This document shows positions 1,862-35,007 of a DNA stretch of 64,000 nucleotides, one piece after another. Location: the NCBI GenBank assembly GCA_025358255.1, contig JANYKC010000002.1, forward strand, positions 1-64,000, given 5' to 3'. This DNA comes from Spirochaetaceae bacterium (GTDB lineage: Bacteria; Spirochaetota; Spirochaetia; Treponematales; Rectinemataceae). The notes beneath the pieces are model-generated. The model was not told where the DNA came from. It was given only the letters and a program-made list of their open reading frames with translations, and ran no database searches. A program made the position numbers and the translations under genes. Numbering within the stretch: position 1 is the stretch's first letter; each line of letters begins with the position of its first letter.

Positions 1862-5200
<3,339 letters not shown>

Positions 5201-26460: not shown

Positions 26461-27105
26461 ATGAACGATTATGCAAAAGCGGAAGGCGGCAGGAATGCCG
26501 GAGACCTTGCGGCGGGGGTTGTCCAGTTGCTCGGGGGTGGGCTCGCCCTCGTGGGCCTCCCCTTCCTCCTGGTGCAGGCCGCAGCCCATCCCTCCGCCGC
26601 CTTCACGGTCTCCTTCTCGATCTATGGCGCCTCGATCCTATATTTCTTCGCGATCTCCGCCCTGGCCCATCTCCTGGAAAGGCCCGGCGCGCGGAGGGTC
26701 ATGGGCGCGCTGGACGACGCTGGCTCCTTTTTCCTCGTAGCCGGCTCATATACGCCTTTTTGCCTGACGAGCTTTCACGGCGCGGCAGGTTGGATCATCC
26801 TTGGTTTGCTCTGGGGCTTCGCCGTCATCCTCTTCCTGGCGACCATCATCTACAACCAGAGGATCAGGGAGTTGGCGCTCGCGGTCTATTACCTTGCCTT
26901 CACCCTTTTCCTGCCGCTCATGCCTTCCCTCCGGAGCCTCCTGCCTGAGACGGTCTTTCCATGGACCCTCCTGGCCGGCCTGGTTTTTGCCCTGGGCCTC
27001 GCCTTCCGTTCGCGCGGGGGCATGCCCTACCACCACGCGATCTGGCACAGCTTTACCCTGGCGGCTTCCGTCGTCCTGTTTTTCGCCCTCCTCGCACTTC
27101 ACTAG
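26461..27105 (+). CDS. hemolysin III / PAQR-family membrane protein
   Basis: 214 residues from ATG 26461 with seven hydrophobic segments. Family landmarks: SIYGASILYFFAISALAH (SxxY/H pattern), GALDDAGSFFLVAGSYTPF (Asp plus GSYTP) and HHAIWHSFTL near the end (His residues of the putative zinc site). PAQR-type proteins are thought to be membrane hydrolases or stress proteins; toxin activity is not implied by the name. The stop codon overlaps that of the converging MinD-like gene within CTAG (27102-27105). Confidence 0.9.
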   Translation: MNDYAKAEGGRNAGDLAAGVVQLLGGGLALVGLPFLLVQAAAHPSAAFTVSFSIYGASILYFFAISALAHLLERPGARRVMGALDDAGSFFLVAGSYTPFCLTSFHGAAGWIILGLLWGFAVILFLATIIYNQRIRELALAVYYLAFTLFLPLMPSLRSLLPETVFPWTLLAGLVFALGLAFRSRGGMPYHHAIWHSFTLAASVVLFFALLALH

Positions 27106-28091
27106 CCCCCGGCATCCCCGCCGTCAAGCGCCTCGAGGGCCAGGCTCTCGAGCTGCGTGTCGAACTCCGACTCTGCTGGGATCGAAGGCAGCGCGAGAGC
27201 GGCATTCGAGATCCGGGTCGCCAAGGCCTGGACACCCCGCGCGAAAGGCGCCTGGGGATCGAGGAGGACGAGGGGCGTCCGCGTGGCGATGCTTCGGGAA
27301 ATGGCCGCGTCCTCGAGAAGGAAGCCCATGAAGGTCAAGGAAAGTCCGAGGTTCTTGAGGCTGATGTCCCGAAGGCGATAGCCGAGTTCCGCGTCCGGCC
27401 TCGTGCGGGCGCGGTTCATGACCACAAAGGGCAGGATCGACTCGAGCCGGGATAGGGCTTCCGCGCCTTTTTCCGGCAAGCTCCCGGCCAGGCCGCGCGC
27501 GAAGCCGACGAAGGATTGGCCAGAGCCTTCGGTCTTTGTCCCCGCGTATTCAAGGATGGCTGCCCGCTGGGGGCTCCCTTCCGGAAAGGAGCGCATGAGG
27601 CTTCGGTAGGCCGCGGTCTTCAGGAAGGAATAGGCGTTGAGGACCGAGGTTATCTCTGGGTTGATGACCAGGATGCCCGTCGGCGCCGACAGGTAAAAGT
27701 CGACGACATTGTATGAGGAACCCGCCCCAAGATCGAGGATCACATAGTCGGCGGGCAGGGAGGCGAGCCCTTTCAGGATGCGGCGCTTGGCATTCCATTC
27801 AAGGTTGGCGGTGCCAGGCAGGAGATTGTCACCAGGAATGAGCCAAAGCCGCTCTTGCCCGGTTTCGACAAGGAGACTCTCCAGGCTTTTTTCGTTTTTC
27901 CACACAAAGGAGCCAAGTCCCGGATGGCGGTTGCGCAGCCCCAGGCAGGTGTGGAGGTTGGAACCGCCGAGGTCGAGGTCCACGAGGACGACTGTCTTGC
28001 CGAGGCGGGCAAGGCATATGCCGAGGTTGGCGGCCAGGACACTCTTGCCTACTCCACCTTTTCCCGAGGCGAGGGGCAGTATCTTGAGCAT
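27102..28091 (-). CDS. MinD/ParA-family P-loop ATPase (FlhG-like)
   Basis: 329 residues. Deviant Walker A GKGGVGKSVLAANLG at ~10-24 with the signature first Lys, a DLDLGGSNLH switch, and DYVILDLGAGSS. Members position flagella, division machinery or chemoreceptors by ATP-dependent membrane or protein binding. A long C-terminal region (~170-329) lacks the usual amphipathic MinD helix and contains FVVMNRARTRPDAELGYRL. FlhG-like function is possible in a spirochaete, but no flagellar gene is adjacent, so the target is open. Confidence 0.88.
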   Translation of the reverse strand: MLKILPLASGKGGVGKSVLAANLGICLARLGKTVVLVDLDLGGSNLHTCLGLRNRHPGLGSFVWKNEKSLESLLVETGQERLWLIPGDNLLPGTANLEWNAKRRILKGLASLPADYVILDLGAGSSYNVVDFYLSAPTGILVINPEITSVLNAYSFLKTAAYRSLMRSFPEGSPQRAAILEYAGTKTEGSGQSFVGFARGLAGSLPEKGAEALSRLESILPFVVMNRARTRPDAELGYRLRDISLKNLGLSLTFMGFLLEDAAISRSIATRTPLVLLDPQAPFARGVQALATRISNAALALPSIPAESEFDTQLESLALEALDGGDAGG

Positions 28092-28205: not shown

Positions 28206-29933
28206 ATGAGCCACGGATGCCATGCTCCTCGCCGAAGCCTCGCCCCTGCCCTTCTCATCGCGCTCGCTGGCCTGGCCTTCGCCAAGGGCGCATCCGCCAC
28301 GGCGGCCGAGGCCAGCCTCAGCACCGAGGCGACCACGACCGAAGGCTATGCGGGCCTCGTCGTCAGGGTTTTCGCGGGCGGGAACGAGCTCAAGTCCAGC
28401 TATGGCGGGGCCCTCGTGTCGGTCAACCGGAGCAGCGTAGGCTACGCGCCGTGGACAAACGAGGCGATGAGGCCGGGCAGCTATGTCATCGGGGTGGAGG
28501 CCGACAACTACTATCCCGTGGAGACCACGGTTGGCCTCCAGGAAAAGACCCGAAGCACCCTCACCTTCGCGCTCAGGCGCATGTCGGGCTTCCTTGACGC
28601 CAGGCTAACGCCTGAGGATTCGGAACTCCTCATAGATGGAAAGATCATGGGCTCCGGCCTCCTCGAGCTCCCGACGGGGAGGCATCATGCCCTGGTGCGC
28701 CGCTTCGCCTACCGGGAGAGAGGCGTCGATTTCACCATCCAGGACAAGGCGGTCACGACCCTCGATGTCAGCCTCGACGAGGCTCCCTTCGAGGTGAGCG
28801 AGTTGCGCTCGCGCCGCGCCGCCTTCGATCCCGGCAATGTCGGAGCCCTCGGGGCGACAGTGCTCTCTTTCTCCGTGACCTCCTACGGTTCAGCCACGCT
28901 CGAGATCCTCTCGGCCGCGCAGGAAGTCGTCGCGCGCTTCGACTTTCCCCTGTTCACCGAGTGGAAACAATCGGTCTCGTGGCCGGGACGCTCCATGGAC
29001 CCTCCCGGCGCGGCCCTGCCCGATGGAAAATACCTGGTCCGGCTCAGTGCCCTCCCCTCGACCGCAACCGCGTCGACGGCGCCGGCCACCGGGCCCGTCG
29101 TCCTGGAAACCACGGTGGCCATCGACTCCGGGCTTGCGGTCTCTCCCTACGGTGCGGCCGGCGCGATGCCCGGCCTCCTCCTCTTTCCCGAACCCGGAGC
29201 GATCGCTTTTGGCCTTGTCGCCCTCGACCTCGGGATCTCGGCGGAAAGCACCGTGATGAGCGATCCTTCCCTCGGTGCCGTCCTTGACCTCGGCATGTCG
29301 GCATCCTTGGGCCGTTTTGGCTTCGCCCTGGCCTCCTTCGTGTCCACGTCCACCCGGACCGGCTCAGCGGATTCGGCCCAGAATATCGGGGCGGCCATTT
29401 CCCTGCGATGGGCCTTTTCGGGCAGGGCCAGCAACTCGCCCGGCGTGGGAAGCGCGGCGGCGTCCCCGGGCGGCGACGAAGGGGGGATGCTGCCTGCATT
29501 CGGAGTTTTCCTGAAAGCTTCCTACAGCGGAAGCGCGGCCGCCGCTTCGATCCTCGCATCGGGGACCGTGAGCGGCGCAATGTGCATGGAGTTGGGCCTT
29601 CCTGCTGCGCTTGCCTCGCGGGGGCTCTCCCTGGGCCTGGCTCCTGCCCTCCTGGTCGCCTTCCCCGTCGATGGCCTTGCCGCCACGGTCGCGCCCCTCA
29701 TCCGTGGCGGCATCTGGTATTCGACCCGGCGCCTGCGGCTTGGCTGTTCCGCCATGGCCAATGCCGCATCCTTGGGCGCCATGCTCGAAGGCCCTTGGTC
29801 TTGGGCCGCGGCCGCGGAATGCCGCGCCATCCTTGGCGCGAGTCCCTTGGTGTTCTCCGTAGCCTGCACGGCGAGAAAGGGAGCCGCTTCGCCGGTTCTC
29901 GGCGCGAGCCTGGGCCTTGGCTACATGCTCTAG
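28206..29933 (+). CDS. secreted PEGA-domain protein with FlgD-like repeat and barrel-like C-terminus
   Basis: 575 residues. Signal peptide at ~12-30 (LAPALLIALAGLAFAKGASA). Two PEGA-like sheets follow: VSVNRSSVGYAPWTNEAMRPG...VIGVEADNYYPVE (split here) at ~75-105 and ELLIDGKIMGSGLLELPTGRH at ~140-160. A FlgD/Ig-like unit lies at ~215-290 (ATLEILSAAQEVVARFDF, GAALPDGKYLVRLSA). The C-terminal ~270 residues, Gly/Ala/Ser-rich alternating strands ending in SLGLGYML, look like an outer-membrane barrel. PEGA domains are common in surface proteins of spirochaetes. Monocistronic by spacing. Confidence 0.7.
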   Translation: MSHGCHAPRRSLAPALLIALAGLAFAKGASATAAEASLSTEATTTEGYAGLVVRVFAGGNELKSSYGGALVSVNRSSVGYAPWTNEAMRPGSYVIGVEADNYYPVETTVGLQEKTRSTLTFALRRMSGFLDARLTPEDSELLIDGKIMGSGLLELPTGRHHALVRRFAYRERGVDFTIQDKAVTTLDVSLDEAPFEVSELRSRRAAFDPGNVGALGATVLSFSVTSYGSATLEILSAAQEVVARFDFPLFTEWKQSVSWPGRSMDPPGAALPDGKYLVRLSALPSTATASTAPATGPVVLETTVAIDSGLAVSPYGAAGAMPGLLLFPEPGAIAFGLVALDLGISAESTVMSDPSLGAVLDLGMSASLGRFGFALASFVSTSTRTGSADSAQNIGAAISLRWAFSGRASNSPGVGSAAASPGGDEGGMLPAFGVFLKASYSGSAAAASILASGTVSGAMCMELGLPAALASRGLSLGLAPALLVAFPVDGLAATVAPLIRGGIWYSTRRLRLGCSAMANAASLGAMLEGPWSWAAAAECRAILGASPLVFSVACTARKGAASPVLGASLGLGYML

Positions 29934-29969: not shown

Positions 29970-30032
29970 ATGAAAAGCACGATCACCCTCAGACTTGGCA
30001 CGGCCTCGGGGCAGGAAGTCCTGTGGCCATGA
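29970..30032 (+). CDS. possible 20-codon leader ahead of fumarase
   Basis: ATG 29970 opens a short frame (MKSTITLRLGTASGQEVLWP) whose TGA overlaps the fumarase ATG (ATGA at 30029-30032). No good ribosome-binding site is seen. It could be a leader peptide or the chance remnant of another reading frame. Confidence 0.2.
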   Translation: MKSTITLRLGTASGQEVLWP

Positions 30033-31732
30033 AGCTTCAGCCGACGATTGCCCATTGCCTGGATTTCGGCGGACAGGAAACCTGGCCGCGCCTCGACCTA
30101 CCCCCGGATCGGGAAAACGGCGTCGGCGCCGCCGTCCTCGAAACCCTGGCCCGCGTCGCCTTCGAGGAGATCGCCTTTTTCCTCCCCACTTCCCAGCTAG
30201 AGGGTTTCGCTGCCGTCCTCAAGGACCCGGGCGCAGGCGAGGCCGAACGCTTTGTCGCGGCGAGCCTCATCCGCAACGCCATCATCGCGGCGGAGGGCGT
30301 CTATCCCCTGTGCCAGGACACGGGCACCGCGGTCGTCTATGGATGGAGGGGATCGGGCTTCGCAAGCGCGACCTGCGATGAGGAGGAGGCCTTGGCCCGT
30401 GGGGTGCGGGCGGCCTACGCCGCCCGCAGGCTCAGGGCCTCGGTCCTCCGGCCCACCGGCTTCCTTTCCGAGGCAAACGCGGGGGACAACCTTCCCCTCC
30501 ATTGCGACATCAGGACCGACTACAGCGGCGAGGGCGCCGGCGGCGAAGGCGCCGGCGGCGAGGGCGCCGGCGGCGAGGGCGCCAGCGGCGAGGGCGCCGG
30601 CGGCGTGGGCGCCGGCGGCGAGGGCGCCGGCGGCGAGGCCTTCCGGCTCTGCTTCGTGGCCAAGGGAGGCGGCTCCGCCAACCGCACGAGCCTTGCCATG
30701 GAATCACCCTCCCTCCTCGACGCAGGCCTGCTCGAAAGGAGGCTTGATGGCCTTGTGAGGGGGCTCGGCACCTCGGGCTGCCCTCCGTATCGCATAACCT
30801 GTGTAGTGGGTGGCCTTTCCCCCGAGGAGAGCCTCTATGTCCTGGCGCTGGCGGGCCTGGGCCTCCTCGATGGCTTGCCTGCGGCCTCCGCGGGCGGGTC
30901 CCCGGCCCTCCGCGACCGCGGGTGGGAAGAGGCGATGCTCAGCTCGGCTGCCGCCGCAGGCCCAGGCGCCCAGTTCGGGGGGAGCCGGCTGGCCATCGAT
31001 GCCCGCGCGATCCGCCTCCCGCGCCACGCCGCGAGCCTCCCCCTAGCCTTCGGGGTCAGCTGCGCCGCGGCCCGTCGGGCACGGGCCTTTATCGACAAGG
31101 AGGGAGTCAGGCTCGAGCCGATGGAAAAGGACCCGGCCCGGTTCCTGCCTGACGGGATGCCCGCCCTCGATGGCGCACAACGCGTCAATCTCGACAGGCC
31201 GGCAAGCGAGCTTGCCGCCGAGCTCGGCGCCCTCCCCCCCGGCACGCCCCTCCTCATCTCGGGAACGGTGGTCACTGCCCGCGACAAGGCCCATGCCCGG
31301 TTCCGCGCCCTTGTCGCCGAGGGCAAGGACCTTCCGGCCTGCATTTTCCGCCATCCGGTGTTCTATGCCGGCCCCACCGACGCGGTGCCCGGAGCGGTAT
31401 CCGGCTCCTTCGGCCCGACGACGGCAGGCCGCATGGATTCCATGCTCCCCGAACTCCTTTCGCGGGGCGCGAGCCTCGTGACCATCGCCAAGGGATCCAG
31501 GTCCCCTTCCGCGGCCAGGTCGATCGCGGAGCATGGCGGGGTCTACCTTTGCGCCATCGGAGGCGCGGCAGCCCTCGCGGCCAAGGAGAATGTGGTCTCC
31601 AGCCGCATCATAGCCTGGCCGGAACTCGGCATGGAGGCGCTTCGCCTGGTCGAACTGCGGGACCTCCCGGCCATCATCGGCATCAACGGCGAGGGCCGGG
31701 ACTTCTACGCCGAATGCGGGGCGGCTCGATGA
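30029..31732 (+). CDS. class I (4Fe-4S) fumarate hydratase with a Gly-Glu-Ala repeat insert
   Basis: 567 residues from ATG 30029 (GTG 30023, closer to AGGAAG, is an alternative). Interconverts fumarate and malate. The three cluster cysteines are recognisable: YPLCQDTG (~95), TSGCPPYR (~250) and GVSCAAAR (~344). Alpha and beta parts are fused, as in FumA/FumB: GGGSANRT and SFGPTTAGRMDS are conserved. Seven 15-bp units (30527-30631) encode a (GEGAG)n stretch at ~167-201, between DIRTDYS and EAFRLCFVAKGG, inside the catalytic part; normal members lack it. The MFS gene overlaps its stop by ATGA. Confidence 0.93.
   Translation: MKLQPTIAHCLDFGGQETWPRLDLPPDRENGVGAAVLETLARVAFEEIAFFLPTSQLEGFAAVLKDPGAGEAERFVAASLIRNAIIAAEGVYPLCQDTGTAVVYGWRGSGFASATCDEEEALARGVRAAYAARRLRASVLRPTGFLSEANAGDNLPLHCDIRTDYSGEGAGGEGAGGEGAGGEGASGEGAGGVGAGGEGAGGEAFRLCFVAKGGGSANRTSLAMESPSLLDAGLLERRLDGLVRGLGTSGCPPYRITCVVGGLSPEESLYVLALAGLGLLDGLPAASAGGSPALRDRGWEEAMLSSAAAAGPGAQFGGSRLAIDARAIRLPRHAASLPLAFGVSCAAARRARAFIDKEGVRLEPMEKDPARFLPDGMPALDGAQRVNLDRPASELAAELGALPPGTPLLISGTVVTARDKAHARFRALVAEGKDLPACIFRHPVFYAGPTDAVPGAVSGSFGPTTAGRMDSMLPELLSRGASLVTIAKGSRSPSAARSIAEHGGVYLCAIGGAAALAAKENVVSSRIIAWPELGMEALRLVELRDLPAIIGINGEGRDFYAECGAAR
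30527..30631. repeat. seven tandem 15-bp repeats in the fumarase gene
   Basis: Unit GGCGAGGGCGCCGGC, seven copies with four single-base changes (GAA, AGC, GTG variants). In frame, so length changes keep translation. Confidence 0.95.
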
Positions 31733-32952: not shown

Positions 32953-34215
32953 TCAGCCCGGCACGGTGAAGATGAAACCACGCGGGTAATCGGCCGACTG
33001 TATCACCTTGAGCCGCCCTTCCTTGTCGAGGCGACGGGCGAATGCGACGGCTTCCTCCTGGGCGGCCCTTGCCGATTCGATGGACCATGTGGACCGGGCG
33101 ATCGCGGCTCGCAGCGAGGCGACGCGCTTCTCCCCGAGGTTTGCCAGGAGTTCGTCCCGTACCGGGATGCCGCATGCGGCCAGACCGGCGGCAAATAGGT
33201 CCTCACCCACCTCGTCCACGAGGAGGCTGAGGGCCTTGTCATCGAAGAGGACGAAGTCCTCGAAGACGAACATGTTCCTCTTGAGCTGCTCGCTCGTCTC
33301 CTTGTCGACCGTCTCCAGGCCTTCGATGATGCGCTTCTCCGTATAGCGATCCGTATAATTGAGCATTGACGCGAATTCCTTGACGTTGAGCCTCGATGCC
33401 ACGCGGCGCACGAACTCCGCGCCGATCGTGCCGTCCCCGTCGACTGCCACCTCGCCGATGGCCGAAAGGGACCTCTCGTCGAAGGCTTCGCCGCGCCGCG
33501 AGAGCGAAGCCAGGTGCATCTGGTCGTCGTTGGCGAGGCGCTCGATGATCGAGGCGCCGAGCCGCAATGTCTCCACGTTGTCCATGATCCTCTCCTCGAG
33601 TCCGAAAGGGATGCGGAAGCGGTGAATGCCGAAGACAGGCCCTGGGGCGCCGGGTCCGAGCCGCCGCCGCTGGCCGCCACGCCCGGCCAGCGCCCGCATG
33701 CGCCGCCGAGCCATGTCGAGACGGCCCTTGGCCGTCGATTCAGCGATGCCGCACACGAGGGCGACTTCCCTCACCGAGAAGCCACCGCCGTACTTCAGGG
33801 CCGCGGCGAGGGCTTCCTCAGGCCTCAGCTGGGAGAAAAGCCCACCGAGAAGGTCCTCGCCCTCACGCGCCTCCCCAGCCATCCCCGCCCCCCAGCTCCC
33901 ACCCTCGCCGTCGAGCTCGTCCGGATCGATGTCGACGATCCGGGATGAGGCTAGGCCCTTCCTTCCCCGCGAGGACAGCTCGTTGCGCGCCACCGACCAA
34001 AGCCAGGACTCGAACCGTGACTCGTTCCGTACATCGCGGATGCCCACGAGGACTTTCAGGAAAATCTCCTGAACCGCGTCCTCGGCCTCCGGAACGCTCC
34101 TCGTCGAGGCCAGGGCAAAGGAATAGAGGCTCTTCTCGTAGGTCCTGACGATGGCGGCGAACTCGGCCTTACCGCCAAGCCGGGCAGCCATCACGACGCT
34201 TTCTTCGATTTTCAT
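32953..34215 (-). CDS. ECF sigma factor fused to FliG-type motor-switch domains
   Basis: 420 residues in one uninterrupted frame from ATG 34215. Residues ~15-85 are sigma region 2 (YEKSLYSFALASTRSVPEAEDAVQEIFLKV and the core-binding ESWLWSVARNEL). Residues ~125-175 are sigma region 4 with a helix-turn-helix (FSVREVALVCGIAESTAKGRL). After a linker, ~265-405 match the middle and C-terminal domains of flagellar switch protein FliG: FASMLNYTDRYTEKRIIEGLE, the hallmark RNMFVFEDFVLFDDKAL, LGEKRVASLRAAI, and EEAVAFARRLDKEGRLKVI. The acidic pair of the FliG torque helix appears as Ala-Ala. No anti-sigma gene is adjacent. The FliG part may be a cis-acting regulator or tie transcription to the motor. 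Confidence 0.9.
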   Translation of the reverse strand: MKIEESVVMAARLGGKAEFAAIVRTYEKSLYSFALASTRSVPEAEDAVQEIFLKVLVGIRDVRNESRFESWLWSVARNELSSRGRKGLASSRIVDIDPDELDGEGGSWGAGMAGEAREGEDLLGGLFSQLRPEEALAAALKYGGGFSVREVALVCGIAESTAKGRLDMARRRMRALAGRGGQRRRLGPGAPGPVFGIHRFRIPFGLEERIMDNVETLRLGASIIERLANDDQMHLASLSRRGEAFDERSLSAIGEVAVDGDGTIGAEFVRRVASRLNVKEFASMLNYTDRYTEKRIIEGLETVDKETSEQLKRNMFVFEDFVLFDDKALSLLVDEVGEDLFAAGLAACGIPVRDELLANLGEKRVASLRAAIARSTWSIESARAAQEEAVAFARRLDKEGRLKVIQSADYPRGFIFTVPG

Positions 34216-34326
34216 GTGCTTCCACCCATATAGACGCCTCCCGCCCCGGAATGCCGATGGAAAAACCATGAATCGGCTGTTTACTTAGGCTTGGCAGGTC
34301 TTGGGATCCTCAAATAGCCCGTGACA

Positions 34327-34896
34327 TCATCGGCCAAGGACCCGCTGCGCGAGGAGGAGGGCGCATGCCATCAGGGCGTGGGAATATGGAGGCTCTCCCA
34401 TCTTCGCGAAGACCTCGTCCGCCGGCACCTCGTAGGCATCGACTATCTCGTGCTCGTCCAGGGACAGCTTCCCCGAGGCCGTCAGGTCGAAGGCGACGTA
34501 GACGTGATAGCGGTTGGCCATGATGGCCGGGTTAGGCGACACCGTTCCGGCATGGACCATGCGGCCCGCCCGATAGCCGGTTTCCTCCTCCAGCTCCCGC
34601 ACCGCCGCGGCCATGGGCGCCTCGCCGGCCTCAACGACGCCACCGGGGAATTCCACGCAGACTTCTTCCATCCCATGCCGGTATTGACGCACCATGAGGA
34701 AGGACAGGTCCTTCCCGCCGCCGATCACCGGGACGACCGTGGCCCAGTCGCGGGCCTCGAGCACCGAGAAGGTGCCGACCCTGCCTTCAGGACCCTCGCT
34801 CACAACCTCGGTGACCGTGAAGACGGGACCGGTCAGGAGGGTCCTTCCCTTGAGCCTTCGCCATTTTTCCCCGCCAGATCCATCGCCCCAGACCAT
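34327..34896 (-). CDS. Nudix hydrolase, ADP-ribose pyrophosphatase type
   Basis: 189 residues from ATG 34896 (GCGAGGAAAAC upstream; an in-frame TTG at 34917 is less likely). Complete Nudix box GGVVEAGEAPMAAAVRELEEETGY, split here as GGVVEAGEAP and AVRELEEETGY. The preceding FPGG and following VSPNPAIMANRYHVYVA fit the ADP-ribose/GDP-sugar hydrolase group, which cleaves nucleoside diphosphate derivatives. Stands alone; the ECF sigma-FliG gene starts ~110 bases downstream on the same strand. Confidence 0.93.
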   Translation of the reverse strand: MVWGDGSGGEKWRRLKGRTLLTGPVFTVTEVVSEGPEGRVGTFSVLEARDWATVVPVIGGGKDLSFLMVRQYRHGMEEVCVEFPGGVVEAGEAPMAAAVRELEEETGYRAGRMVHAGTVSPNPAIMANRYHVYVAFDLTASGKLSLDEHEIVDAYEVPADEVFAKMGEPPYSHALMACALLLAQRVLGR

Positions 34897-35007
34897 GTTT
34901 TCCTCGCGCTCCCGCAAGACGGAATACTAGCCCGCTTGCCCTGGGAAGGCAAGCGCGGGGACAATCCGGCGGCCCGGCATGCGCCCGCCAGGCCTGGCGC
35001 CCGAGGC

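Follow-up and report, generated by a model that had tools for sequence, protein, structure and literature searches.

A single reading frame in the window, the stretch of 64,000 nucleotides of Spirochaetaceae DNA that was analysed here, joins an ECF sigma factor to a cut-down version of the flagellar rotor protein FliG, and a conserved ribosome-binding site with an in-frame start codon lies embedded at the border between the two halves. Judged from these signals, two proteins are probably translated from the gene, namely the full-length fusion and a free FliG-like protein of 210 residues. We put at about an even chance the reading that this is an ECF sigma factor under autoregulation, controlled in cis by an interaction module derived from FliG and complemented by a free regulator translated from the internal start. 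The features on which the analysis rests are listed in Table 1.

Table 1. Features of the sigma–FliG locus, in window coordinates.
Feature	Position	Strand	Remarks
ECF sigma–FliG fusion gene	32953..34215	(-)	420 aa, ATG start
Sigma-70 region 2 (residues 23-85)	33961..34149	(-)	Pfam PF04542 Sigma70_r2, E 1.2e-11
Sigma-70 region 4 (residues 126-173)	33697..33840	(-)	Pfam PF08281 Sigma70_r4_2, E 5.9e-5
Second half of FliG ARM_M + ARM_C (residues 212-311)	33283..33582	(-)	profile and structure match
FliG_C (residues 299-403)	33007..33321	(-)	Pfam, 1.5e-15; MFVFED kept, torque charges lost
MFVFED hinge inside the FliG_C domain	33256-33273	(-)	
Embedded Shine–Dalgarno AGGAG, in codons E207-E208	33592..33596	(-)	6 nt before the internal ATG
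Internal start codon, Met211	33583..33585	(-)	invariant
Predicted free FliG-like product	32953..33585	(-)	210 aa, internal start; free-standing relative L163
Possible ECF-type promoter TCGGC...CGTCTA	34231..34257	(-)	15 nt before the start codon; 10/14 to the family motif
NUDIX hydrolase gene, upstream of the fusion	34327..34917	(-)	neighbour shared with L007; reference point for the empty site in relatives

By its domain make-up the window protein is an ECF (group 4) sigma factor, with sigma2 and sigma4 as its only sigma domains. The Sigma70_r4_2 score falls just below the gathering score in the window protein and lies above it in all six complete ECF–FliG homologues. The initial annotation had joined sigma regions at residues ~15-175 to the FliG middle and C-terminal domains at ~265-405. 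The fusion itself is confirmed; the FliG part begins earlier, at about residue 211, and includes only the second half of the middle domain. In the proposed HMM scan, Sigma70_r2, Sigma70_r4_2 and FliG_C were found in the window protein and FliG_M (PF14841) gave no match. The FliG identity of the C-terminal half is borne out by FliG_C and by TIGR00207 FliG, which covers residues 238-407 (2.3e-17). A profile built on residues 205-311 picks up canonical FliGs across the phylum, and since these ordinary proteins match over profile positions 15-101, the middle part corresponds to the second half of ARM_M followed by ARM_C. SnoaL-like sequence, by which ECF41 and ECF56 are recognised, is not present in the extension, which Pfam identifies as FliG_C.

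A sequencing frameshift joining two genes was considered and is ruled out, because the suggested search of spirochaete genomes returned the same fusion, intact and in frame, at no fewer than six further independent Spirochaetia loci (L007, L022, L025, L159, L160 and L161), all within Spirochaetota. The copy in L007 belongs to the same family and another genus and shares 45-46 per cent identity with the window protein. Carriers are rare: the order sample of 394 genomes contains four, and in the class sample about eight genomes have a strong match. The phylum sample gave no strong match beyond the class, searches of the orders of G506 and G511 returned only the carriers already known, and no plasmid copy covers the fusion. 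Nearly all fusion loci come from metagenome assemblies. A related sigma–FliG gene in G467 (L165:1136-1864) is broken; its frame ends inside the FliG part and is followed directly by a transposase-like gene.

An AlphaFold model of the window protein, computed from a six-sequence alignment (mean pLDDT 75.6), agrees with this domain assignment on both sides. Its sigma half resembles SigW and CnrH (Z 14.7). Residues 214-406 match FliG 137-327 in the FliG–FliM crystal 4fhr (Z 14.2, 3.4 Å over 170 residues), as had been anticipated for the C-terminal half, and the FliG_C domain superimposes on 1qc7 with an rmsd of 2.0 Å over 88 residues. The linkers fall below pLDDT 50 and the placement of the sigma half relative to the FliG half is unreliable, so an inhibitory contact cannot be read from the model.

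The embedded start is a property of the family. The arrangement GGAG-6 nt-ATG occurs in nine of the ten fusion genes, and in the tenth (L159) the spacing is 9 nt. Across 196 columns of a codon alignment we asked where G at the third position exceeds what the codon usage of the individual genes predicts. The columns of the two Shine–Dalgarno codons rank first (10/10 GAG, expected 4.8) and second (9/9, expected 5.2), with a joint probability from codon usage of 4.4e-7. In L161 a Trp codon yields GGGAG at this place, and genes with a GC content of 28 and 31 per cent also carry AAG GAG at the site. As both codons are the most G-biased of all columns, the DNA itself is under selection. Duplex energy alone, taken as a measure of Shine–Dalgarno strength, did not single out Met211 in the GC-rich genes, whereas the codon-level test did so. 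What is found at the domain border is thus the pattern expected of a dual-product gene, a conserved Shine–Dalgarno sequence followed by an in-frame ATG. A free-standing FliG-like half was found once only: in L163 (G591) it forms a 202-aa gene which begins at the internal start with AAGGAGGGTAACAATG. Located 5′ of it is a short out-of-frame stretch that looks like the N-terminus of an ECF sigma factor; the sigma gene may have decayed there.

A motif like CCAACTTT-N13-CGTCTA precedes the start codon of most copies by 8 to 29 nt; none was found upstream of L007. Since L027 and L028, two loci of a variant architecture described below, supplied the motif, their scores of 14/14 are no test of it. 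The others match at 12 (L159, L160), 11 (L025) or 10 positions (the window gene, L022, L161). Shuffled sequences give p = 0.016 for the window gene, which is weak, at most 0.0008 for L159 and L160, and at most 0.005 for L025. In a regulon search of five genomes the exact motif occurred once in G506 and once in G054, each time at the sigma gene itself, and a single-mismatch match in G475 was no better than the backwards control. This promoter pattern is consistent with autoregulation and with a regulon of very small size, as reported for ECF41, whose regulons have a single target (PMC3426412).

How could such a protein be controlled? The full-length sigma–FliG protein and the free FliG-like protein would be produced from the same gene, and the FliG module would act as an anti-sigma-like domain which keeps sigma2 and sigma4 off RNA polymerase. 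In FliG, ARM_C and the MFVFED hinge take part in FliG–FliG packing. Like-with-like contacts of ARM_C and the C-domain hinge, both within the chain and with free copies, could hold the sigma factor. A signal altering these contacts would release it, the released factor would mainly fire its own promoter and few others, and the free copies would set the threshold. Here we infer the inhibitory sign of the regulation, the contacts and the signal. The initial annotation had argued for in-cis control from the lack of an adjacent anti-sigma gene; this idea fits the data, as no anti-sigma gene recurs near any fusion copy among the neighbours inspected, and an extension fused to the sigma factor with no such gene beside it is what characterises a known class of ECF sigma factors (PMC8999054). 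More tentative, and in our judgement somewhat less than an even prospect, is a fully self-contained sigma/anti-sigma switch having both a fused and an extra free FliG-derived inhibitor, its own promoter as the main target and STAS–SpoIIE as an exchangeable signal input.

The last element refers to a second architecture, in which the same sigma half and FliG middle part are followed by STAS and SpoIIE domains. It occurs in L027 (G506) and in L028 + L164 (G054), the latter two being contig ends with shared identical sequence. STAS (3e-10, 2.9e-16) and SpoIIE phosphatase (2.9e-17, 1.9e-18) matches replace FliG_C in these proteins, and G506 has both architectures. A tree was built from nine fused sigma domains and 74 other ECF sigma domains picked by likeness to the query. 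The nine form one group (support 99/95; 98 per cent of bootstrap trees), within which the STAS–SpoIIE variants nest; on this tree the sigma halves of the fusions share one origin. STAS and SpoIIE domains are units of partner-switch sigma control, and in the variants a phosphorylatable STAS unit would take over the signal-receiving end. Inspection by eye indicates that the phosphorylation-site Ser of STAS is kept in L027 and L164, and that the SpoIIE parts (L027:5962-8016 and L164:5661-7022) have lost metal-binding Asp residues; instead of being active phosphatases, they may bind a signal. No RsbW-like kinase was seen near the variants.

The main rival to an inhibitory module is an activating or oligomerising platform of the ECF42 type, which the sigma factor would need and which another protein would switch on. 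That extensions are swapped at the C-terminal end while the FliG middle part is kept speaks for such a platform, as do the ARM-type repeats, which are protein–protein modules, and the TPR extensions of ECF42 provide a precedent (PMC8999054). The extension could just as well be a requirement for activity, which it is in ECF42 and in part of ECF41. However, an embedded start supplying free copies is easier to reconcile with an inhibitor or titrating partner than with an activator in cis, and no partner gene recurs beside the copies. We regard the activating platform, as a whole, as unlikely, at roughly half the weight given to the inhibitory module.

Less probable still is docking of the sigma factor to the flagellar C-ring through its FliG part, or sensing of motor assembly, both of which were among the options of the initial annotation; release would then come when the rings are built or missing. 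The losses in the FliG part weigh against this reading. EHPQ is the FliM-binding motif of FliG, the N domain of FliG binds FliF and the torque-helix charges serve torque. When eight fusion FliG parts were aligned with eight canonical FliGs, ARM_C and the motifs ILNxxDRxTEK and MFVFED were found retained, the first and last of which could favour docking. The FliG part starts past EHPQ, which is absent, and the FliF-binding N domain is missing altogether, its place being occupied by the sigma domains. The torque-helix acidic pair had been described as Ala-Ala; this holds for the window protein and L007 and is not uniform across the family, the aligned pairs in other fusions being PR, AR, IE, EE, RK and ER. 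None of the eight fusion proteins retains the Arg of GPVR. As far as the alignment goes, what remains of FliG is half of ARM_M, ARM_C, the MFVFED hinge and the C-domain, with the motor contacts lost, which makes motor docking less likely. In two clade members, moreover, FliG_C is itself replaced by STAS–SpoIIE.

The gene neighbourhood argues in the same direction. No copy of the fusion lies among flagellar genes. The context of the L007 copy is that of the window, with the NUDIX gene upstream and a fumarase gene downstream. Two relatives, G012 (same genus) and G011, keep fumarase–MFS–NUDIX–PAS in order without the fusion, the gap between the MFS and NUDIX matches being ~80 and ~25 bases, respectively, and in G004 fumarase, NUDIX and PAS are kept and the fusion is absent. 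Since the locus order is kept there and the gene is lacking, the flagellated sisters G012 and G004 do without the fusion, which therefore is not a motor part. On the other side, canonical FliG and FliF are present in all carriers, if only as a fragment at a contig edge for the FliF of G096, a genome 57 per cent complete; in the class sample FliF occurs in 280 of 395 genomes. About nine carriers are, though, too few for such an association to count, as it could arise by chance with a probability of ~0.05.

Some further features were seen around the gene. The fumarase-like gene (30023-31732) carries repeated GEGAG units, inserted at ~30524-30645 (+), which are absent from the L007 relative. A MinD/ParA-type ATPase of FlhG-like look (27102-28091, (-)) and a PEGA-domain protein (28206-29933, (+)) are encoded a few kb from the fusion, with no sign of a link to it.

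Finally, the internal start might be a productless relic, left over when an ECF gene fused with a FliG-like gene downstream of it, as ECF genes usually lie upstream of their regulator's gene and L163 shows the downstream half on its own, but this is very improbable: at 30-46 per cent protein identity third positions should be saturated, yet the Shine–Dalgarno codons end in G in 10/10 genes, even in those of 28 and 31 per cent GC, which is unlike a relic.

FliG domains also turned up in other unusual settings. A 630-aa frame in G002 (L012:1447-3339, (-)) is a natural FliM–FliG fusion, with FliM (1.3e-44), FliG_M (8.2e-19) and FliG_C (1.1e-22), and a 582-aa frame in G024 (L011:160-1908, (+)) combines FliN-type SPOA (FliMN_C, two stretches) with a full FliG (N, M and C). 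G000 and G012 share a conserved gene pair outside flagellar loci (L202:2842-4409, L203:1187-2721, L205:516-2029), consisting of a 137-aa protein without a Pfam match and then a 367-385-aa protein with a divergent FliG_C at its end. On contig C60 of the window genome a 223-aa protein has FliG_C at its start (L201:4214-4885, (-)), and a separate ECF sigma gene follows ~90 bases downstream on the same strand (L201 ~3640-4214, (-)); the two may form an unfused FliG/ECF pair. FliG_C also occurs in other Spirochaetia genomes in frames of 726, 621 and 631 aa (L178, L180 and L190), which may be more rotor-domain fusions.

Extensions of ECF sigma factors can act as fused anti-sigma domains, and C-terminal add-ons form a known class, as the initial annotation had noted (PMC8999054). 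Neither FliG nor STAS is mentioned in that review, and the literature searched, with partial coverage, held nothing to the point on a FliG–ECF fusion or on an internal start within an ECF sigma gene. An unnamed group with a FliG extension may be listed in the newest ECF classification. The combination of an ECF sigma factor, a FliG-derived extension and an embedded start was found nowhere in the literature searched and is, to that extent, new. It adds a type of extension to the ECF sigma factors, in which a rotor protein domain is reused as a likely regulator and fused and free forms of one regulator are apparently made together from one gene. Two matters become testable: the balancing of a fused anti-sigma-like domain by free copies, and FliG–FliG contacts outside the motor.

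Four known systems come close. With FliG itself the fusion shares fold and sequence of ARM_C, the MFVFED hinge and the C-domain; it differs in being joined to a sigma factor and in lacking the N domain, EHPQ and the torque residues. The variants in L027 and G054 use the STAS and SpoIIE domains of partner-switch regulators, but here these stand in one chain with an ECF sigma factor and a FliG-like middle. ECF41 (SnoaL-like), ECF42, ECF56, ECF238 and ECF243 likewise consist of ECF sigma2–sigma4 and a C-terminal extension (PMC8999054, PMC3426412), and ECF41 and other extension groups resemble the fusion in having no separate anti-sigma gene and an apparently tiny regulon; in contrast to all five groups, the extension is FliG-derived and the internal start is conserved. 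The closest parallel for the embedded start is SpaO/HrcQ (SctQ) of type III secretion, whose C-terminal domain is made by internal translation (PMC4443714, PMC8553256, PMC13059759). In both cases one gene with an embedded start encodes a full-length protein and its free C-terminal part, the latter as a predicted product in the fusion, and proteins of the rotor-ring type are involved; there, however, the domains are SPOA and the full-length form is a ring scaffold, whereas here a sigma factor is combined with a FliG-like domain.
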